Shown one piece after another: positions 41,427 through 51,178 of a stretch of 64,000 nucleotides of DNA; position 1 is the first letter of the stretch, and every line of letters begins with the position of its first letter. The position numbers and the translations under genes are program-made. Below the pieces are notes generated by a model. The model was not told the DNA's origin. It saw nothing but the letters and a program-made list of their open reading frames with translations, and did no database searches. The stretch is from Nocardioides astragali. Its GTDB lineage: Bacteria > Actinomycetota > Actinomycetes > Propionibacteriales > Nocardioidaceae. The DNA lies in assembly GCF_024436375.1 (NCBI RefSeq), contig NZ_JAFMZM010000001.1:310001-374000 (forward strand). Reading direction: 5' to 3'.

Positions 41427-44327
41427 ATGACCGAGACGGTGAGCACCCGCGCCAAGGGAGCCAAGGGCAAGGGCCTGACCCTGCAGCGTGTCTTCAGCAC
41501 CGAGGGCACCCACCCCTACGACGCCATCACCTGGGAGCGTCGCGACGTCGTCCAGCAGAACTGGAAGACCGGCGAGACCGTCTTCGAGCAGCGCGGCGTG
41601 GAGTTCCCCGACTTCTGGTCGGTCAACGCCTCCACCATCGTCACGACCAAGTACTTCCGCGGCGCGGTCGGCACCGACGTACGCGAGTGGAGCCTCAAGC
41701 AGCTCATCGACCGGGTCGTGAAGACGTACACCAAGGCCGGCATCGACCACGGCTACTTCGCGACCGACGGCGACGCCGAGATCTTCGAGCACGAGCTGAC
41801 CTGGCTGCTCGTCAACCAGTACTTCTCCTTCAACAGCCCCGTCTGGTTCAACGTCGGCACCGCGTCGCCGCAGCAGGTCTCGGCCTGCTTCATCCTCTCG
41901 GTCGACGACTCGATGGACTCGATCCTCAACTGGTACAAGGAGGAGGGCTTCATCTTCAAGGGCGGCTCCGGCGCCGGCCTCAACCTCTCCCGCATCCGCT
42001 CGTCCAAGGAGCTGCTCTCCAGCGGCGGTACGGCGTCGGGTCCGGTCTCCTTCATGCGTGGCGCCGACGCGTCCGCGGGCACCATCAAGTCGGGCGGCGC
42101 CACGCGTCGGGCGGCCAAGATGGTCGTCCTCGACGTCGACCACCCGGACATCGAGGAGTTCGTGATGACGAAGGCGAAGGAGGAGGACAAGATCCGCGCC
42201 CTCCGCGACGCCGGGTTCGACATGGACCTCGGTGGCGCCGACATCACGTCCGTGCAGTACCAGAACGCCAACAACTCGGTCCGCGTCACCGACGAGTTCA
42301 TGCGTGCGGTCGAGGACGGCGCCGAGTTCGGCCTGCGCGCCCGCGGCACCGGCGAGGTCATCGAGACAGTCGACGCCCGCGACCTGTTCCGCAAGATCAG
42401 CGAGGCCGCCTGGGCCTGCGCCGACCCGGGCCTGCAGTACGACGACACGATCAACGACTGGCACACCAACCCCGAGACCGGCCGCATCACCGCGTCCAAC
42501 CCGTGCTCGGAATACATGTCGCTCGACAACTCCTCGTGCAACCTCGCCTCGCTCAACCTGCTGAAGTTCCTCAAGGACGACGACACCTTCGACGCCGCCC
42601 TGTTCGCGAAGGCCGTCGAGTTCATCATCACCGCGATGGACATCTCGATCTGCTTCGCCGACTTCCCGACCGAGCCGATCGGCGACACCACCCGCGACTA
42701 CCGCCAGCTCGGCATCGGCTACGCCAACCTCGGCGCGCTGCTCATGGCGATGGGCCTGGGCTACGACTCCGAGGGTGGCCGCTCGATGGCTGCTGCCATC
42801 ACGTCGCTGATGACCGGTACGTCCTACAAGCGCTCCGCCGAGCTCGCCGGCATCGTCGGCCCCTACGCCGGCTACGCCCGCAACGCCGAGGCCCACAAGC
42901 GCGTGATGCGCAAGCACCAGGCGGCCAACGACGTCGTACGCGTGCTGCACACCGAGGACAGCCGCGTGCACAAGCTGGCCACCAAGGCGTGGGCCGACGT
43001 GATCAAGACCGGTGAGAAGAACGGCTTCCGCAACGCGCAGGCCTCGGTGCTCGCGCCGACCGGCACCATCGGCTTCATGATGGACTGCGACACCACCGGC
43101 ATCGAGCCCGACTTCTCCCTGGTGAAGTTCAAGAAGCTCGTCGGCGGCGGCTCGATGCAGATCGTCAACCAGACGATCCCGCGGGCGCTGCGGAAGATGG
43201 GCTACCAGCCCGAGCAGGTCGAGGCGATCGTCGCCTACATCGCCGAGCACGGCCACGTCGTCGACGCTCCCGGCCTCAAGACCGAGCACTACGAGATCTT
43301 CGACACCGCGATGGGCGCCCGCTCGCTCAAGCCGATGGGCCACGTGCGGATGATGGCTGCCGCGCAGCCGTTCCTCTCCGGCGCGATCTCCAAGACGGTC
43401 AACCTGCCGGAGTCGGCCACGGTCGAGGAGATCGAGGACGTCTACATGCAGTCCTGGAAGCTCGGCCTCAAGGCGACCGCGATCTACCGCGACAACTGCA
43501 AGGTCGGCCAGCCGCTGTCCGACGGTGGCGGCAAGGCCAAGAAGGACGCCGCCGACGCCAAGGACGCAGCCGACGCCGCGAACACCAAGGTCGTGGAGAA
43601 GGTCGTCTACGCCCCGGTCCGCAAGCGCCTGCCGAAGTCGCGCGTCTCCCGTACGACGTCGTTCACCGTCGGCGGTGCCGAGGGCTACATGACCTCCGGT
43701 GCCCACGACGACGGCCAGCTCGGCGAGGTCTTCCTCAAGCTCGGCAAGCAGGGCTCGACCCTGGCCGGCGTGATGGACGCCTTCTCGATCGCGGTGTCGA
43801 TCGGCCTGCAGTACGGCGTCCCGCTGGAGACGTACGTCTCGAAGTTCACCAACCTGCGCTTCGAGCCCGCCGGCCTGACCGACGACCCGGACGTGCGGAT
43901 GTCGCAGTCGATCATGGACTACATCTTCCGCCGCCTCGCCCTGGACTACATGTCCTTCGAGGAGCGCTCGATGCTCGGTATCTACTCCGCCGCGGAGCGC
44001 CAGCGCCACCTCGAGACCGGCTCCTACGAGCCGATCGTGGAGGAGACCGGCTCCGCTGCCGAGCTCGTCGAGGCGCACTCCGCCCCCGCCTCCGCCGAGG
44101 TCATCGACGCCGAGGAGGTCGAGGCCAAGGACACCCACGGCAACGAGGCCCGCGAGGTCCCCGCCCGCGTCACCACCGGCGAGGCCAAGACCACGGCCGA
44201 GCTCTTCGAGCAGCTCACCGGCACCGCCGTCGACTCCCCGCTCTGCATGACCTGCGGGACGAAGATGCGGCCGGCTGGGTCGTGCTACGTGTGCGAGGGG
44301 TGTGGGAGCACCAGCGGCTGCAGCTGA
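41427..44327 (+). CDS. nrdJ: Vitamin B12-dependent (class II) ribonucleoside-diphosphate reductase
   Basis: The enzyme makes deoxyribonucleotides using adenosylcobalamin, without oxygen. The 966-residue protein has the class II N-terminal VFSTEGTHPYDAITWERRD, FIFKGGSGAGLNLSRIRSSKE, the active-site NPCSEYMSLDNSSCNLASLNL and a C-terminal zinc-like cysteine cluster CMTCG...CYVCEGCGSTSGC that recycles the redox pair. Length (about 960) is normal for the actinobacterial single-chain type. It is paired with nrdR. A charged Ala/Lys insert (KAKKDAADAKDAADAA) precedes the last third, as in relatives. Together with the absence of nrdAB here, the cell depends at least in part on cobalamin for DNA synthesis. 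Confidence 0.97.
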   Translation: MTETVSTRAKGAKGKGLTLQRVFSTEGTHPYDAITWERRDVVQQNWKTGETVFEQRGVEFPDFWSVNASTIVTTKYFRGAVGTDVREWSLKQLIDRVVKTYTKAGIDHGYFATDGDAEIFEHELTWLLVNQYFSFNSPVWFNVGTASPQQVSACFILSVDDSMDSILNWYKEEGFIFKGGSGAGLNLSRIRSSKELLSSGGTASGPVSFMRGADASAGTIKSGGATRRAAKMVVLDVDHPDIEEFVMTKAKEEDKIRALRDAGFDMDLGGADITSVQYQNANNSVRVTDEFMRAVEDGAEFGLRARGTGEVIETVDARDLFRKISEAAWACADPGLQYDDTINDWHTNPETGRITASNPCSEYMSLDNSSCNLASLNLLKFLKDDDTFDAALFAKAVEFIITAMDISICFADFPTEPIGDTTRDYRQLGIGYANLGALLMAMGLGYDSEGGRSMAAAITSLMTGTSYKRSAELAGIVGPYAGYARNAEAHKRVMRKHQAANDVVRVLHTEDSRVHKLATKAWADVIKTGEKNGFRNAQASVLAPTGTIGFMMDCDTTGIEPDFSLVKFKKLVGGGSMQIVNQTIPRALRKMGYQPEQVEAIVAYIAEHGHVVDAPGLKTEHYEIFDTAMGARSLKPMGHVRMMAAAQPFLSGAISKTVNLPESATVEEIEDVYMQSWKLGLKATAIYRDNCKVGQPLSDGGGKAKKDAADAKDAADAANTKVVEKVVYAPVRKRLPKSRVSRTTSFTVGGAEGYMTSGAHDDGQLGEVFLKLGKQGSTLAGVMDAFSIAVSIGLQYGVPLETYVSKFTNLRFEPAGLTDDPDVRMSQSIMDYIFRRLALDYMSFEERSMLGIYSAAERQRHLETGSYEPIVEETGSAAELVEAHSAPASAEVIDAEEVEAKDTHGNEAREVPARVTTGEAKTTAELFEQLTGTAVDSPLCMTCGTKMRPAGSCYVCEGCGSTSGCS

Positions 44328-44337
44328 CCATGGCGCG

Positions 44338-44368
44338 GAAGGGCCCGTCCCGTGGGGGCGGGCCCTTC
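44338..44368 (+). terminator. Intrinsic terminator after nrdJ
   Basis: GAAGGGCCCG (44338-44347) pairs with CGGGCCCTTC (44359-44368), with CCC/GGG pairing in the loop. It marks the left edge of the accessory island. Confidence 0.75.
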
Positions 44369-44474
44369 GTGCTGCTACTACCCATACCTTCCTGCTTGCC
44401 CAGCGCATCCCCCTGGGGAGCCAGGTCGGCTCCCTCCACTCTGTTCTGCCCAGTGGTCCGAACCGTCAACCATC

Positions 44475-44502
44475 TCCGCAGATGTTCCGTATGTTTTGCG
44501 GA
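44475..44502. promoter_or_regulatory. Inverted repeat at the start of the nuclease-candidate gene
   Basis: TCCGCA (44475-44480) and TGCGGA (44497-44502) flank 16 bases and the right arm ends on the A of ATG 44502. It could be an operator or structure that limits translation of a toxic nuclease; weak. Confidence 0.3.
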
Positions 44503-45440
44503 TGCCAGTCGTGTCGACCGAATCCAGCTCACAGCTCCCGCCTCTTGCAAGTGCGCTACAGCAGGCAGGGGAGCGCCCACCTACGCTGCCGCGGACCGGT
44601 GGCGGCACGAATCAAAGCCTCAAAAAGAATTGGGCGCAAAAGTTCAGCAATGCCTTAGCTACAACTGTGGCGAACGGCTTGCGTGTTTACTACCCAAAGG
44701 CATTGATTACGCCTGAGCCGGATGGGAGCAAACAGGAGTACACGGTCGGCGGAAAGGTTGACCGCAAGAAGACCGACGTCGCGGTGATTGATGACATGGC
44801 TGGCCTGATTGCCGGCGTCTCAATTAAGACCCTGACGTTTCGGGACACACATCAGGACCCGAAGACGAAAGAACGGTCGATCGGCCGCTACCAGCGCAAC
44901 GTAAAACGCAACGACATGGAACTTCGCGATGAGGCCGACACGCTTCATCGCCGGCAGCCGTTCGCCGTTCTAACTGCTCTAATGTTCTTGCCAGAGGACG
45001 GTTGTTGGGACGGCGTCAACGGGCACAGCAGCTTCGCCCACATTGTCTTCACTCTGCGGAAGCGCACGGGGCGCGACTCTCCCGAGGGCCGATTCGATTT
45101 GTTCGAGAATGTATACGTGGGGTTGATCGATTTCGACGGGAACGTGAGGTTCTTCGATGTGCGCGACGCCCCACCCAAAAACCAGCCACCCAACGAGAAA
45201 GACACAATCAGTTTCGATCAACTAATGGAGAGAATCGACCAGGCAGTGGAGATGCGCAACGCCGGAGTCAGCGCTGCGGAAAAGTACGCCACCCCCGACC
45301 TCAGGTGGGCGCCACCTGCCGACAGCCTTCCCGACGGCCTTGAGAACGAGAAGCCCCTAACCCTGGAGTATGTGATTGAGAGCGCTGGCGAGACCGAGGA
45401 CGACTTGAGGTTGTTTGGCGACCAGGGCGACGAAGGTTAA
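44502..45440 (+). CDS. Candidate restriction-type endonuclease (PD-(D/E)xK-like)
   Basis: A 312-residue protein of no family I can name with certainty. Residues about 80-110 (VGGKVDRKKTDVAVIDDMAGLIAGVSIKTLTFRD) read as D92 followed, one strand later, by S107-I-K109, the spacing of a PD-(D/E)xK active site with Ser at the acid position. A Lys/Asn/Asp-rich helix and FAVLTALMFLPEDG follow. Codon use is much less GC-rich than in its neighbours, the sign of recent acquisition. Its stop overlaps that of the convergent vsr gene by four bases, next to dcm, so it is probably the nuclease part of a restriction-modification system. Start ATG 44502 is preferred over the open frame to 44352. Confidence 0.6.
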   Translation: MPVVSTESSSQLPPLASALQQAGERPPTLPRTGGGTNQSLKKNWAQKFSNALATTVANGLRVYYPKALITPEPDGSKQEYTVGGKVDRKKTDVAVIDDMAGLIAGVSIKTLTFRDTHQDPKTKERSIGRYQRNVKRNDMELRDEADTLHRRQPFAVLTALMFLPEDGCWDGVNGHSSFAHIVFTLRKRTGRDSPEGRFDLFENVYVGLIDFDGNVRFFDVRDAPPKNQPPNEKDTISFDQLMERIDQAVEMRNAGVSAAEKYATPDLRWAPPADSLPDGLENEKPLTLEYVIESAGETEDDLRLFGDQGDEG

Positions 45441-45841
45441 CGAACGGCTGCCTCGACGCGCTTGGCTGCCTGTTCGGGATCCTCGTGCTCCCAGATGCGC
45501 ACAACCTCCCAACCGAGCTCCGCCAGTCGACGGTCGGTGTCGCGATCCCGAAGCACGTTGGCCTCAAGCTTCTCCGCCCACCAAGCACCATTGGATTTTG
45601 GCTCGGTACCGTGAGTCGGACACGCGTGCCAGTAGCACCCGTCAACGAACACGGCGACCCGCCGCTTGGTGAACAGGATGTCTGCGCGACGTCGGACGCC
45701 TTTGATCGGCAGAGCCGCGTCGACTCGATACCGGAGGCCGCGAGCGTGGAGGAGTCTGCGCAGCGCCAGTTCGGGTTTCGTCCCGACTCGCTTCTGGCGC
45801 TGCATTCGCCGGAGATACTCGGGGCTGCTGGCCTTCGGCAT
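45437..45841 (-). CDS. vsr: Very short patch repair endonuclease Vsr
   Basis: Vsr nicks 5' of the T in T:G mismatches that arise when 5-methylcytosine deaminates at sites of a C5 methyltransferase. The 134-residue protein has the family core RRADILFTKRRVAVFVDGCYWHACPTHGT with catalytic D54, W71 and H72 and zinc-site Cys/His residues (C69, C74, H77), plus the N-terminal SPEYLRRMQRQKRVGTKPELALRRLLH. Its gene neighbours dcm and the nuclease candidate. Vsr genes are nearly always linked to a cytosine methyltransferase, as here. Confidence 0.96.
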   Translation of the reverse strand: MPKASSPEYLRRMQRQKRVGTKPELALRRLLHARGLRYRVDAALPIKGVRRRADILFTKRRVAVFVDGCYWHACPTHGTEPKSNGAWWAEKLEANVLRDRDTDRRLAELGWEVVRIWEHEDPEQAAKRVEAAVR

Positions 45842-45857
45842 GCCTCGAACTTAGCCT

Positions 45858-47015
45858 TCAGGCAGTAGCTGCGACGTGCTCAGAGACGTCTGCCCGGAAC
45901 TGGGGGTCGAAGCGAAGCGTGGAGCGTTCCATCCGGCTCTTGAAGCCTGCGGCGGCCCGGTGGCTGAGCGGCTTGCCCTCGGAGACGTCGACCGTCTCGA
46001 GCAGGTGCTTGTATGGGGCCTGCTCGGGCCACATGGAGACCGGCGACTCGAAGACCTCACCGTTGCCACCCCACGCGGCGAGGGGCCACTTGCCACCAGG
46101 CACACGCACACCGTCCATGGCGTCGTGGTCACTGGGGGAGACCAGCCGGCGACCGAGCCACTCACTGATCCCGACGGTCACGGCGTTGCCGACCAGCTTC
46201 CAGCGGGGCCCGTTGGTCCGGCCGAGGTCGGCTGCCTGAGTCCAACCACGAGCGAAGCCCTGGAGCTCCTCGGCCTCCTCAATGCGTGGCATGACCAGCT
46301 TGTGCCCCTCGGGGCCGTCGGGCACCCAGATGGCGGGCGGGCTGGGGATGCCGACGGTGCTGCCGCCCTTGAGAGTGGGTACCGCATCGTGCGCCCAGCC
46401 GAGACCGCGAAGACCCTCGGTCCAGTAGAAGCCGTAGGACGATCCCTTGTAGAAATCCGGACCCGGCTCACCGGCGTCGTCCACCAAGAGGACGTCGGCA
46501 GGATTCTCCGTCTGGCTGGCGACCATGATCACCCGCTGCCGGCGCTGGGCAACTCCGACGCTACGGCTGTCTACAAGGCGGTATGCCCACCGGTAACCGC
46601 GCTCCTCAAGGGAGTCAACCAGGTAGCGCATGGCCTTCCCGCCGTCGAGCACGAGCATGTTCCGGACGTTTTCGAAGACTAGCCATGTCGGCTGTGCGCT
46701 TTCCAGCAGTCGGAAGACGTGGGTGACCAAGCCGCTCGCCTTGCCACCGATTCCAGCGGTGCGGCCGGCCTGCGAGAGGTCGGTGCACGGGAAGCCGGCG
46801 GTCATCACGTCGACCTTGGGGGAGGATTTCAGGACTGCGACGTCGCCCTGCAGGTCGGCGTGGGGAAAACGGTCGGCGAGCACCTGCTGAGAAGGGGTCC
46901 AGTTGTCGACCAGCAACACGGCGTCGGAGGCGCCAGAGCGGCGGAGGCCCTCTTCCACCCCGCCGATGCCAGCGAACAGGCCTACGCCGGTCATCCGTGT
47001 GGTCATAGGCATCAT
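45858..47015 (-). CDS. DNA (cytosine-5-)-methyltransferase
   Basis: A 385-residue C5-type DNA methylase. Motif I is VGLFAGIGGVEEGL, motif IV with catalytic C77 is GFPCTDLSQAGR, motif VI is FENVRN (about 115-119), motif VIII is QRRQRV and motif X is GNAVTVGISEWLG. The region between VIII and X, the target-recognition part, is about 110 residues. The C-terminal 90 residues beyond motif X are extra and Pro/Trp-rich. Recognition sequence cannot be read. The frame opens MMPMTTRMTGVG; ATG at residue 8 is an alternative start. It is divergent from the GHKL ATPase gene with 216 bases between, holding a LexA box. Confidence 0.95.
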   Translation of the reverse strand: MMPMTTRMTGVGLFAGIGGVEEGLRRSGASDAVLLVDNWTPSQQVLADRFPHADLQGDVAVLKSSPKVDVMTAGFPCTDLSQAGRTAGIGGKASGLVTHVFRLLESAQPTWLVFENVRNMLVLDGGKAMRYLVDSLEERGYRWAYRLVDSRSVGVAQRRQRVIMVASQTENPADVLLVDDAGEPGPDFYKGSSYGFYWTEGLRGLGWAHDAVPTLKGGSTVGIPSPPAIWVPDGPEGHKLVMPRIEEAEELQGFARGWTQAADLGRTNGPRWKLVGNAVTVGISEWLGRRLVSPSDHDAMDGVRVPGGKWPLAAWGGNGEVFESPVSMWPEQAPYKHLLETVDVSEGKPLSHRAAAGFKSRMERSTLRFDPQFRADVSEHVAATA

Positions 47016-47052
47016 TATGCGGACTACATGAGTGTAACTCCAGTCCGAATCG

Positions 47053-47068
47053 TCGAAAACTTGTTCGA
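47053..47068. promoter_or_regulatory. LexA-box-like site in the dcm-GHKL promoter region
   Basis: TCGAAAACTTGTTCGA matches TCGAAC-N4-GTTCGA at 11 of 12 conserved positions, as good as the box at lexA itself. It is 38 bases before the dcm start on the minus strand and 164 bases before the GHKL gene. Confidence 0.55.
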
Positions 47069-47231
47069 AGTTCTCTGGTGAGCCCTCTAGTCAGAGCTAT
47101 CTGGGTCCGGGTATCTTCTCTGCACTGCAACTTCTGGCAACGGAGCACGATTTCGGTCCTCCTCTCGCGCCGGCACGCGCAGTGAACCCGACACCGGCTC
47201 ACTCCGAGCCGCCTTCGAGAGAGAACTCAAC

Positions 47232-49187
47232 ATGTTTCATGTAGACAACGCCGACTTCATTGCGGACAAATTGGCAGCCGAGCTGCTGCCCAACCAGGAG
47301 TACCGCGAGGCAGCCAAGAACAGCGCCGAGGCCATCGCCCGGCGCGTCGCCTCCCGCGGCGGCCCCAAAGGCCGCGTCGAGTATGACGTCGACTGGGCCA
47401 TGCTCAGCGAGACCGAACCCCCGGCCTGGTACCTCTCCTGTGCCGACAATGGCGACGGCATGACGCGCCATGAGCTGGGCGTCTACACGACGACCCTGGC
47501 CGTTCGGGGCGCTAACCAGAACCAGTCGCTTACCGGCAACCAGGGGATGGGCCTCAAGATCAGCGGCCCGACTCGCCACAAGGAGGGCCTCCTCATCCGC
47601 TCGCTCAAGGCGGGGGAAGCCAGCATGGTGCAGGTTGGCTGGAACAAGCAGACCAAGCAGTACGGCCTCATCCCGCTCGGCGACGGCGGCGAGGAGATCG
47701 TCTCCGTGCCTACGGAGTTCTTCCCGGACTTCATCATCGAGGCGGGGTCGGGGACCGTGGTCACCTTCCTCGGCAACTCCTCGGGCGAGAACACCTTCGT
47801 GCCTGCGGGCAGCCCGCGCGGCTGGCTCTTCAAGTATCTCAACCAGCGCTTCTACCGCTTCGAAGACGAAGGCATCGAGATGCTCGTACGCGTTCCAACC
47901 GGTGACGTCGAGGACTGGCCGATCAGCCGCGAGGAGGCTGTCGAGCGCACGAAGGGCAAGGGTCGGTCGTTCAACCTCTCGCGGGTCAACGGCACGGCCG
48001 CGGTGTGGGACGACGCCAGCAAGAAACTCGGCGACCACTACTCCGGGACCGTGACTGTGGCGGGCGACCCCGCCGTCGGGCACCCCGCTGCCAACGTTCA
48101 CTGGTGGGTCCTGCCGACCGGCCCCGGCTCAGACGTGTCCACCCGCACCTTCAGCGGTGGCTCGATCGGCATCCTGTACCAAAACGAGGTCCATGACTGG
48201 CGTACGAGCAGCATGGCCAACGCGTACTTCGCCCGCTTCGGGGTGCTGCTCGGCAAGAACCGCGTGGGCTTCGTCGTCGAGCCCCTGGGCGACACCGTCA
48301 CCTCCGACTTCGCCCGCGCCCACGTGCTCGTCGGCGGCAAGCCCGTGTTCGAGCACGAGGCCTGGGTCTTCTGGGCCGAGCAGTTCCGCTCCACCATGCC
48401 CCAGGAGATCAGGGACGTCATGGCTGACGAGCAGGAGCGCATGCAAATCGAGGACCCCGACCGCAACAAGCGGATCAAGGAGCGCCTCAAAGACGTCATG
48501 TCCCTACTGCGGCCCGTCCGTGCTCGTCGTCGCGCGGACGGCAGCGTCAAGGCCTCCGGCCCCACTGTCAGCGGTGGCACCAGCGGCACCAAGTCCAATG
48601 GGACCTCGACGTCCTCGTCGTCCAGTTCCATCACCCGCAAGAGCAGCGGCGCTAGGGGTATCGGCTCGCTGCTGAGCCAGCTCAGCGACGCCGGCGAGTC
48701 GGCCGACCTCGTCTACTCCTCCTTGGAGCTGGAGCCGATCTGGCGCACCGAGGAAGAGGCATCAAGCTACGCCCTCGTCGGCGGAGACCTCCGGGGCCTG
48801 CACGACCGTGCTGCCGCTCTGGTCGGAGAAGACGGCGCCACCGCGCCGCTTCTCGTGCTCAATAAGCAGTTCCGCGGATATACGGCAATCGTCGAGGCCG
48901 TCAACGAGTGGGCGAATCCCGAGGGTGACGAGACCAAGGCCGAAGTAATCGAAACCCAGACCCAGGAGTGGATCACCCAGAAGATGCTCGAGGCAGTTTC
49001 GGGGCTCCGCCAGCTCGAAAACGGGTCGAGCTGGACCGCTCAGACCTTCAACGAGGGTCTGAGCCCGGTCGCGTTGACAAGTGCCTTCATGGCGGACCGT
49101 TACCACACGCTGCGTGAGGTGAAGCGTCACGTGGGCAGCCTTCGGCAGACGATTCCCGCGTCCACAGAGACTGCTGACGCAAGCTGA
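47232..49187 (+). CDS. MORC/MutL-type GHKL ATPase of a restriction-linked module
   Basis: A 651-residue ATP-binding protein. The GHKL fold is clear: helix-1 N-box EAAKNSAEAIARR with N30, motif G1 CADNGDGM with D72, and G2 GNQGMGLKIS with residues 102-110, which hold the ATP lid. A region to about residue 420 follows like the S5-like domain of MutL/MORC proteins. Then comes a Ser-rich linker (about 440-470) and a C-terminal domain of unknown fold. GHKL ATPases of this type sit beside cytosine methylases and Vsr in many bacterial restriction-like loci (Iyer and colleagues linked them to MORC). Function in those systems is not established. The gene has a weak ribosome site. Confidence 0.85.
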   Translation: MFHVDNADFIADKLAAELLPNQEYREAAKNSAEAIARRVASRGGPKGRVEYDVDWAMLSETEPPAWYLSCADNGDGMTRHELGVYTTTLAVRGANQNQSLTGNQGMGLKISGPTRHKEGLLIRSLKAGEASMVQVGWNKQTKQYGLIPLGDGGEEIVSVPTEFFPDFIIEAGSGTVVTFLGNSSGENTFVPAGSPRGWLFKYLNQRFYRFEDEGIEMLVRVPTGDVEDWPISREEAVERTKGKGRSFNLSRVNGTAAVWDDASKKLGDHYSGTVTVAGDPAVGHPAANVHWWVLPTGPGSDVSTRTFSGGSIGILYQNEVHDWRTSSMANAYFARFGVLLGKNRVGFVVEPLGDTVTSDFARAHVLVGGKPVFEHEAWVFWAEQFRSTMPQEIRDVMADEQERMQIEDPDRNKRIKERLKDVMSLLRPVRARRRADGSVKASGPTVSGGTSGTKSNGTSTSSSSSSITRKSSGARGIGSLLSQLSDAGESADLVYSSLELEPIWRTEEEASSYALVGGDLRGLHDRAAALVGEDGATAPLLVLNKQFRGYTAIVEAVNEWANPEGDETKAEVIETQTQEWITQKMLEAVSGLRQLENGSSWTAQTFNEGLSPVALTSAFMADRYHTLREVKRHVGSLRQTIPASTETADAS

Positions 49188-49202
49188 CGCCCCGTCTTCC
49201 CG

Positions 49203-49223
49203 GGCGGCCACGTGGTGGCCGCC
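49203..49223 (+). terminator. Hairpin after the GHKL gene
   Basis: GGCGGCCAC (49203-49211) and GTGGCCGCC (49215-49223) form a perfect 9-bp stem with a three-base loop, 15 bases past the stop and five before the next ORF's ATG. It may end the GHKL message or limit the start at 49228. Confidence 0.55.
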
Positions 49224-49227
49224 GCCG

Positions 49228-49641
49228 ATGCTTCTCGTGGCTAAGGCGACGCCGGGGCAGTCCCCGGCCACAACGACCGTCAAGGTGTTTGTCTGTCCCG
49301 GCCGTATCACCGTGCCCCCGGCACGGCTCGACCTGGACGGCGACGTACTGCGGCAGGAGTTGTGGGAGGCCAGCTCCGCTGGCTCACGCTCGAGGGGCAA
49401 AAACGTTGCCGAACGCGCGCGTGCCCTTGAGATCCTCCTCGACGCGGTCGCTGCACATGCAAGCTCGAACCAAGCGTGGCTGCAGGACCGCCGATTCGAG
49501 GGCCTGCTGACACCGAACGGCAAGCGCCGCGCCAAGATGGCGCGTGAGCTGCACGCGTTGTTGCCGAGCGGCTCCGACACGTGGCGGCCGCTACGCGAGG
49601 CGTTGGAGAAGCTGAGGGTCGCGTCCGAGGACGACAGCTAG
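49228..49641 (+). CDS. Hypothetical protein in the restriction island
   Basis: A 137-residue soluble protein with no recognised domain. After a coil-like start it contains helical RGKNVAERARALEILLDAVAAHASSNQAWLQDRRFEGLL and a final RRAKMARELHALLPSGSDTWRPLREALEKL. It follows the GHKL gene on the same strand, but a hairpin sits just before its ATG, so the true start may be further in. Real codon bias supports coding. It may be the last gene of the module or a fragment of the following helicase locus. Confidence 0.5.
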   Translation: MLLVAKATPGQSPATTTVKVFVCPGRITVPPARLDLDGDVLRQELWEASSAGSRSRGKNVAERARALEILLDAVAAHASSNQAWLQDRRFEGLLTPNGKRRAKMARELHALLPSGSDTWRPLREALEKLRVASEDDS

Positions 49642-49673
49642 GTCCCGCGGTCCAGCTGTTGCAGAGTTGATGC

Positions 49674-50513
49674 GTGGGACCTAAGCACCGTCCCGCCTTC
49701 GTCGCCACCTTCCACGCCTTCGGCCAGCAGTGGGGCCCAGCCGAAGGGGATCGCACGGACAGTGAGTTCTGGGAAGAGCGGTTGCCTGCCGAGATGGCCG
49801 AGCTCGCCGGTGGGTTGCCGGACAAGCAGAAGTACGACGCTGTCATCGTCGACGAGGCGCAGGACTTCGCCGACTCATGGTGGACCCCGGTGCTGCGATC
49901 GCTGCGGGACGAGGAGAAGGGCGGGCTGTTCGTCTACTCCGACGAGAACCAGCGCATCTTCGCCCGCTTCGGGCGGCCGCCCGTGGCACTGGTCCCGCTG
50001 GTGCTGAACCACAACATGCGCAACACCCGCCAGATCCACGAGTCGTTCGGGCCGCTGGCGCCGAGCCGGATGTACTCACGTAGAGGTGTCGGACCTGCCG
50101 TGCGGTTCGTCTCCTCGCCGCCGGAGGATGCGCTCGAAGCGGCTGATGACGCGGTAGACGCGCTTCTGGAGGAGGGCTGGGAGCCACGCAACGTCGCGCT
50201 GCTGACGACCGGTCACCGCCACCCCGTTCAGGTCGAGCGCACCGACTTCCACGATCAGGAGGGCTACTGGCGCACCTACTGGGACGACGACGTCTTCTAC
50301 GGCCACGTGCTGGGGTGCAAGGGCCTCGAGCGCCGGGCGGTCGTGCTGTGCCTCAACGAGGACGGGTCACGCGACCGCGCACGCGAGCGGCTCTACGTCG
50401 GGATGTCCCGCGCTACCGACGAGCTCGTGGTGGTCGGGGACCGAGACCGTACGGCGCGTGGCCGGCGGGGATGTGGCGAGGCGGCTCGGGCTCGGCTGAA
50501 GGCTTGCCTCTAG
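49674..50513 (+). pseudogene. NERD/UvrD-like helicase, N-terminal half missing
   Basis: The 279 residues match the C-terminal half of nuclease-related (NERD) plus UvrD/DEAD-type helicases. VDEAQDFADSWW is Walker B. NMRNTRQIHESFGPLAP, FYGHVLGCKGLERRAVVL and ARERLYVGMSRATDELVV are motifs III to VI. Walker A and everything before it (normally a NERD nuclease domain and the first ATPase half) are missing: upstream is only 32 bases to the unknown ORF. So this gene was cut when the island formed. The GTG used as start is arbitrary; expression is doubtful. Its stop and that of the convergent EEP gene share a CTAG. Confidence 0.8.
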
Positions 50514-51178
50514 AGAGCGACCTCGACCACGTAGGCGTCGTGGTCGGACAGGCGCTTGCCTTCATGGGTCACGTCAATCCGTGACGCCACGGCCCGGAGA
50601 CCAGCTGGCACGGCCACGTGGTCGATGGTCAGCAGGCCGTCGATCGCGTGCGGCAGGTCAGCAGTAGCCGATCGAAGGCCGAGTGCGTCGAGAGCCCCGA
50701 CCACGGCGCCACGCCCTCCTTGCGAGCCGACGTACTCCTTGCCGGTCAGGGCGTGGTTCCAGTCGCCACCCCACACCAAGGAGTCGGCAGCGCGAAGGCG
50801 TACGAGCAGGTCGTCGACTGTGTTGCGGGTCTTGTCGGCGTGACTCTCCCCGGTCCAGGGAGGCAGGGATCGGCACCCCTTCCACGGCAGGATCGAGCTG
50901 ACGTACGTCGTCGAACCGACGCGCACCTGAGCGCTCGCCGGGTGCGGGTCGGGGCTCGAGGTCATCAACAGCCGGCTGGCGATCCCTGCCCAACGCCGGC
51001 GCGGTGCCATCAGTGACTGCGACAGATGCACCGAGTAGCCGGGGAGGCATGTGCGCTCGTTGACCTCGGTCAAGAGCCAGAGGTCGCAGTCGGCCTCCAG
51101 TATCAGATCACGGTGCTGCTCGGACCAACGTCCAGCGAGGTTCCACGTCCCTATGCGCACGAGGCGAGCATGACGCAT
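50510..51178 (-). CDS. Endonuclease/exonuclease/phosphatase (EEP) family protein
   Basis: The 222-residue protein has the EEP metal-dependent hydrolase motifs: GTWNLAGRW (Asn), LTEVN (catalytic Glu), GGDWNH, IDHVAVP and the C-terminal LSDHDAYVVEV (Asp-His). Members include exonuclease III, DNase I and sphingomyelinases; no signal peptide is seen, so a cytosolic nuclease or phosphatase is likely. It is convergent with the truncated helicase and marks the right border of the island. The substrate is open. Confidence 0.85.
   Translation of the reverse strand: MRHARLVRIGTWNLAGRWSEQHRDLILEADCDLWLLTEVNERTCLPGYSVHLSQSLMAPRRRWAGIASRLLMTSSPDPHPASAQVRVGSTTYVSSILPWKGCRSLPPWTGESHADKTRNTVDDLLVRLRAADSLVWGGDWNHALTGKEYVGSQGGRGAVVGALDALGLRSATADLPHAIDGLLTIDHVAVPAGLRAVASRIDVTHEGKRLSDHDAYVVEVAL

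Follow-up and report, generated by a model that had tools for sequence, protein, structure and literature searches.

The DNA examined here, hereafter the window, is a stretch of 64,000 nucleotides from Nocardioides astragali (contig NZ_JAFMZM010000001.1, positions 310,001 to 374,000). It carries a compact locus in which a candidate restriction endonuclease (R), a very short patch repair endonuclease (Vsr), a C5-cytosine DNA methyltransferase (M) and a GHKL ATPase (G) are encoded side by side, between nrdJ and two broken genes. The layout is R> <vsr <M G>: the ends of R and vsr overlap by 4 bases (45437-45440), and G is divergent from M across a gap of 216 bases. The four open reading frames (ORFs) of a preliminary description of this DNA lie where it placed them, with the motifs it listed and the overlap of the R and vsr stops. 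R is also, as described there, low in GC: its content is 58.1%, where vsr has 64.7%, G 65.7% and M 67.2%. The four genes are the following.

44502..45440, + strand: R, type II restriction endonuclease candidate, 312 amino acids, with a permuted PD...SxK...E site (D92, S107-I-K109, E144)
45437..45841, - strand: vsr, very short patch repair endonuclease, 134 amino acids, TIGR00632
45858..47015, - strand: M, C5-cytosine DNA methyltransferase, 385 amino acids, PF00145 and PDLC03324
47232..49187, + strand: G, GHKL ATPase, 651 amino acids, GHKL motifs, a neighbour outside the conserved trio

M and Vsr, described as complete, match curated models well. The M product matches PF00145 (E 1.1e-38, residues 9-173) and the PADLOC MTase_II model PDLC03324 (E 2.6e-123, residues 8-381), and its motifs GFPC, ENV, QRR and GNAV are all present. 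The vsr product matches TIGR00632 (E 6.4e-36, 123.3 bits for a cut-off of 97.85). R matches no Pfam, NCBIfam or PADLOC model at E <= 1, and its start at 44502 is backed by the start positions of five relatives encoded on plasmids. G weakly matches two general Pfam HATPase families (HATPase_c_3 at E 2e-4, 21.8 bits for a cut-off of 25) and no PADLOC or NCBIfam model, NF050001 included, at E <= 1. Its N-box, D72 and G2 loop are intact as reported, residues E26, N30, D72, G74, G76, G105, G107 and K109 being the same in all four sequences that cover them (G and three relatives). Its predicted structure (mean pLDDT 40) was left out of the fold search. No Z1 helicase match, the absence of which had been pointed out, was found among the window ORFs scanned (nine against Pfam, six against PADLOC, six against NCBIfam).

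The occurrence of these genes elsewhere separates a trio from its neighbour. A profile of R, searched against 316 genomes across the phylum, yielded four matches: the window and the genomes G278, G075 and G289. In G278, which belongs to the same class as the window, M, R and vsr lie in this order on one strand (locus L098; identities with the window proteins of 51% for M, 42% for R and 67% for Vsr). R was found in 12 of the 21 genomes of the genus of G278, and all 12 carry adjacent M and vsr genes in the order M-R-vsr (11 loci in addition to L098). A 13th trio is found in G075, from another family of the phylum, where M and R stand together, followed by a convergent vsr and then by nrdJ (L097; 60% for M, 33% for R, 65% for Vsr); R is present in one of the four genomes of the genus-sized group to which G075 belongs. 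The sets of 316, 21 and 4 genomes are in part samples of larger groups. At none of these 13 loci outside Nocardioides was a homologue of G found with the G profile or with the sequences of G and two other GHKL proteins as queries, searches that a GHKL gene of another family could escape; the loci L105 and L106 have one short flank each. A GHKL pattern scan also found nothing at the trio loci, but it overlooks a true member (L028) and is hence not relied on. The DNA examined around 12 further R relatives likewise held no G homologue.

The trio occurs in three arrangements, R convergent to vsr-M in the window, M-R-vsr, and M-R with a convergent vsr, which argue against a single inherited block. 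Since M-R-vsr recurs without the ATPase in other bacteria, the latter is most likely a separate neighbour and not a motor. M-R-vsr is very probably a conserved unit, a compact C5 type II restriction-modification (R-M) system that includes a gene for very short patch repair, and G a separate ATPase that shares the island without being a needed part. The system thus falls into the familiar class of C5 type II R-M systems accompanied by Vsr, and its endonuclease comes from an unnamed family. The preliminary description had grouped all four genes: its assignment of R to M and Vsr is strengthened by the 13 further loci, whereas co-occurrence of the full set holds for M, R and vsr and largely fails for G, no homologue of which was found at the 13 loci outside Nocardioides. 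A suspected four-part ATPase machine is thereby recast as a testable three-gene restriction system and a neighbour.

Relatives of R were found by tblastn on plasmids of five genera (six matches, of which H2, a near-duplicate of H1, was left out). The R profile identified four relatives in viral contigs and matched five of 335 genomes of the family, counting the own genome and a remnant in N. ungokensis. As single-sequence queries, neither R nor G retrieved a relative from the viral contigs, nor did R from phages. Among the 12 relatives examined for their context (L002-L006, L033-L036, L078-L080), 11 have an N6-adenine methylase gene directly 5' of them, often with a short overlap. One of these methylases is typed by Pfam as Eco57I class, and the ten others are homologous to it (39-51% identity). 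An N6 methylase followed by an R relative is the standard type II layout, and this position marks R as a restriction-enzyme gene. A function by context is thus given to an unnamed endonuclease family. In the literature searches, no listed paper dealt with this gene set in its title or abstract; the R family, being unnamed, is not searchable by name and may be listed in REBASE.

The residues of R point in the same direction. The 12 sequences of alignment A5 share K89, D92, S107, K109, D115 and E144 without exception, in line with the PD-(D/E)xK-type candidate site first proposed from D92, S107 and K109, and D92, S107, K109 and E144 are also kept in the trio members L097 and L098. D92 and K109 are separated by 17 residues in every aligned member; K109 and E144 are 35 residues apart in the R of the window and 26 in the 11 others. 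In the low-confidence structural model of R, E144 is located in a helix (128-151) after the strand (101-110) carrying K109. An acidic residue placed after the lysine, PD...K...D/E, is the permuted arrangement that PMC6344858 describes for the active site of CCGG-family restriction enzymes, and a passage of the BbvCI paper (PMC6326814) names serine among the residues that stand in where the usual glutamate is absent. When the R model was submitted to a second look with VIA-align, type II restriction endonucleases filled nine of the first ten rows, with Z values from 8.3 to 7.2 (BbvCI, BstEII, BsaWI, EcoRI, Kpn2I). The rows include BbvCI (Z 8.3, rmsd 4.3, 166 residues aligned), BstEII (7.8, 3.6, 143), BsaWI (7.4, 4.7, 163) and Kpn2I (7.3, 4.8, 184). 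The R profile run against PDB sequences gave a best E value of 0.079, those matches being other proteins, and the invariant columns of the R alignment include no R-(D/E)R motif. Judged from its context and residues, R is a nuclease candidate, the predicted fold adding mild support.

M was found in 18 of the 335 Nocardioidaceae genomes, the window and 17 others. The neighbourhoods of these 17 relatives were compared, taking the best place per genome (a second place in G730 was left out). Seven lie beside a family of endonuclease-like proteins of 283 amino acids and eight next to the DISARM gene drmC; another adjoins a second methylase together with an AAA protein, and the last, L077, is a cut M only. 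One of the eight drmC genes was typed by NCBIfam and the others by homology to that one. No R or G of the window's families was found in the 17 neighbourhoods. The 283-residue family (L061-L066, L072, L019, L020) accompanies M relatives, mostly together with Vsr, which was not found in L063 and L064. Its D81 and E136-A-K138 are invariant, none of the members scanned has a match in Pfam or NCBIfam, and it is probably another unnamed restriction endonuclease. In L019 and L020, from two rhizobial plasmids, its gene is convergent with vsr, as R is in the window. That R might be a diverged form of this family was considered and rejected: hhalign gave a probability of 0.2%, both profiles being of low diversity, and the two are therefore treated as unrelated.

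The M family is thus found with two predicted endonucleases that appear unrelated to each other, R and the 283-residue family, and also adjoins DISARM, Druantia-type and GHKL genes; the R family in turn is partnered by C5 as well as by N6 methylases. The specificity of C5 methylases resides in the part that separates motif VIII from motif X. In M this region (residues 175-262) is 49-73% identical to that of 13 relatives taken from differing contexts, and the catalytic part 42-64%. Such conservation suggests that M relatives may share one target, and hence one mark, with swapped effectors. If all of them do, effectors would be exchanged around a single DNA mark.

Three loci from this survey deserve description in their own right. 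A second decayed C5 R-M locus of N. ungokensis (L072:3998-7953) lies some 20 kb upstream of a remnant of G; it consists of a SIR2-type gene and, after it, M in two frames, a member of the 283-residue family and Vsr in two frames. L071:6146-11801 harbours DISARM drmC, M and Vsr, then convergent genes for an HNH nuclease and a BbrUII/HgiDII-type GHKL protein. In L021:5971-7635, from a Mycolicibacterium plasmid, a C5 methylase and Vsr are fused in a protein of 554 amino acids, encoded divergently from a double-HATPase protein.

In such a system, M would methylate cytosine at C5 in a fixed target and so mark the DNA of the host. R, which probably forms a homodimer and has a metal site of the permuted PD...SxK...E type, would cut the same target where it is unmethylated, as in phage or plasmid DNA entering the cell. 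Vsr would initiate repair of the T:G mismatches that arise by deamination of the methylated cytosine. G would be a separate GHKL ATPase sharing the island, dispensable to the trio, and presumably independent of it in this strain too.

G is a rare protein, present in two of 341 Nocardioidaceae genomes and, among 396 genomes of the phylum, only in its own. A pattern scan of species genomes found six G loci, in N. ungokensis and five others; these five and one in Caballeronia make six loci outside the genus. Pattern-based searches overlook many relatives, and the rarity of G is better founded than its full range. In the DNA examined around the six relatives outside Nocardioides, four of which (L029, L030, L031, L032) are on short contigs or at contig ends, no M, R, vsr or N6 methylase was found. 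Their neighbours vary, with an AbiTii protein in L031 and a SEC-C protein in L030, and G looks like a member of a defence-associated ATPase family without a fixed partner. Two distant G relatives, on alphaproteobacterial plasmids of Agrobacterium and Dinoroseobacter (L008:7806-12868 and L009:7986-14486), stand directly before genes for ATP-binding and UvrD proteins; in L008 these genes match PADLOC GajA and GajB, and L009 is Gabija-like by annotation only.

A likeness of G to MORC proteins, suggested in the preliminary description, is not borne out. The GhXhhpXXRhl motif of the S5 domain, the signature printed in the corresponding part of Iyer et al. 2008 (PMC2292703), is absent from all five sequences compared (G and four relatives), the nearest stretch in the window being FGVLLGKNRV; G as a MORC was thus rejected. 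An architecture lacking a helicase is not in itself new: in the same paper, as far as its text on neighbourhoods goes, a minority of MORC neighbourhoods pair MORC genes with methylases or restriction enzymes and no helicases.

The closest other match of G is in N. ungokensis, where a stretch 89% identical in DNA spans G and its upstream region. This copy has a frameshift near residue 64 and leaves the frame once more at about residues 491-538. Beside it, pieces of R (45 residues, 56%) and M (24 residues, 83%) are recognisable in the order of the window; no vsr was found in the 18 kb around it. The order R-M-G has therefore existed in two places in the genus, and this is the main evidence for a link between G and the trio.

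Several observations weigh against a self-sufficient trio with R as its nuclease. Both Nocardioides genomes with a G gene have it next to R and M or to what is left of them, so that a link within this genus may exist. Third-position GC is lower in R (0.70) and vsr (0.73) than in M (0.82) and G (0.86), and the parts may thus differ in history. At the fourth locus of the phylum search, L099 (G289), a weak R-like match stands alone at a contig start, with no M, vsr or N6 methylase in the 9 kb around it, and one R relative on a Pseudomonas plasmid (L005:7872-8693), the exception among the 12 examined, has no recognisable methylase nearby. The structural model of R, with a helix-strand-strand-helix-strand order, is poor (mean pLDDT 53), and Foldseek returned no match for it at E <= 0.001. 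The Z values of R are in the range that VIA-align calls common, and an acetyl-CoA carboxylase domain reaches 7.8. The fold prediction advocated for the 312-residue protein thus places restriction endonucleases at the top of the VIA-align list (Z 8.3-7.2), with unrelated folds close behind.

These points have to be set against the other readings of the locus. The one first put forward, an ATP-dependent restriction module of four components in which the ATP-driven opening and closing of G licenses or moves the R nuclease, could draw on the divergent position of G at 216 bases from M, on the common order of the R piece, the M piece and G with its upstream region in N. ungokensis, and on the meeting of C5 methylase, Vsr, nuclease and GHKL genes of other families in L071, next to DISARM drmC, and in L021. 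Yet no homologue of G turned up in the DNA examined at the 13 M-R-vsr loci from outside Nocardioides, the R family acts, by context, as a two-gene system with N6 methylases, and relatives of G exist without M, R or vsr, at six loci. The role of G as a gate or motor for the nuclease is left unsupported, and such a module is quite improbable. A related scenario, equally doubtful, is that in Nocardioides M-R-vsr recruited a GHKL ATPase of an otherwise separate family, a formerly ATP-independent type II endonuclease now being under ATP control. If this were true, trios with and without G would form a natural before-and-after pair for the origin of ATPase-gated restriction.

It is also unlikely that G is an accessory or second defence gene using the mark of M, for instance a GHKL restriction factor of the BbrUII/HgiDII kind, able to sense unmethylated sites by itself. 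That GHKL family (NF050001) is itself named as a restriction enzyme and occurs near an M-family gene in L071, and the specificity region of M is conserved across contexts with quite different effectors; G, however, matches neither NF050001 nor any PADLOC model at the threshold used, and none of its relatives outside Nocardioides was found with an M relative nearby. The view of R as an unrelated gene left between nrdJ and vsr, and no nuclease for the site of M, would account for its GC content below those of M and G and for the many R relatives paired with an N6 methylase instead. The repeated association of R with M and vsr, in three arrangements, makes it very hard to credit. The interpretation retained is that of an M-R-vsr system with G as a neighbour.

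The surroundings of the locus comprise the following features.

41427-44327, upstream of R: nrdJ, class II ribonucleotide reductase
44341..44365, + strand: GC-rich inverted repeat read off the sequence, possible nrdJ terminator, between nrdJ and R
49228..49641, + strand: ORF of 137 amino acids, by homologue comparison probably what remains of the C-terminal part of a SIR2-type protein, outside the system
49674..50513, + strand: ORF of 279 amino acids, 5'-truncated NERD-UvrD helicase by similarity to an intact 553-residue protein in G541, not a member of the system

The inverted repeat has a single exact match within the window and is not among the outputs of a terminator scan covering 44300-49800. 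The 49228 ORF, thought earlier to be a possible fifth member, matches no Pfam, PADLOC or NCBIfam model at E <= 1, and a plasmid search yielded no relative of it. Matches to it, mostly from residue 33 on, occur in 17 other genomes of the 215 Nocardioides genomes searched (18 with its own) and sit, with one exception (131 codons), in open frames of 393-642 codons. Its homologue in G714 is a SIR2/ThsA-like protein of 335 amino acids, the C-terminal part of which corresponds to this ORF. With such longer frames elsewhere in the genus, it looks like a C-terminal remnant of a SIR2/ThsA-like protein and was rejected as a system member. The 49674 ORF shares 68% identity over 250 residues with the second half of the intact NERD-UvrD protein encoded downstream of nrdJ in G541 (L086:6693-8354). 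It was dismissed as the missing helicase, being without the NERD and Walker A half present in this homologue.

The downstream side of nrdJ (44327-51178 in the window) was compared in ten relatives, of which three were classified: L084 holds sspA-D, L086 a caspase gene and the NERD-UvrD helicase, and L088 a type IV restriction gene. It is a defence hotspot, in which the M-R-vsr trio of G075 (L097) is included, and the SIR2 fragment and half NERD-UvrD gene downstream of G look like the debris typical of such a place.

Compared with known systems, the window resembles the MORC/paraMORC R-M loci in that a GHKL ATPase is encoded close to a C5 methylase and to Vsr, and helicase-free examples of these exist in the neighbourhoods treated in PMC2292703; G differs in having no MORC signature and in not being kept with M-R-vsr elsewhere. 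Among BbrUII/HgiDII GHKL proteins, the L071 member (805.6 bits for an NF050001 cut-off of 550) lies near a C5 methylase of the M family, but G itself fails this model at E <= 1. The HEF_HK and Response_reg_2 paraMORC-like loci, in the account given by part of PMC8011034, place a HATPase_c_3 protein beside C5 methylases, often with Vsr, and L021, where M-Vsr accompanies a double-HATPase protein, is similar; G has its weak HATPase matches in one place, and the nine window ORFs scanned have no response-regulator match. With the CCGG family (Cfr10I, NgoMIV, Bse634I, PfoI), R has no match among PDB sequences better than E 0.079 and no invariant R-(D/E)R motif, but it has in common the permuted PD...K...D/E order described in PMC6344858, and Kpn2I and BsaWI are among its fold rows. 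Type II R-M systems with a V (Vsr) gene differ from the trio in that the endonuclease here matches no Pfam, NCBIfam or PADLOC model and its family also pairs with N6-adenine methylases; they are alike in their separate, adjacent and co-recurring C5 methylase, PD-(D/E)xK-type endonuclease candidate and Vsr.

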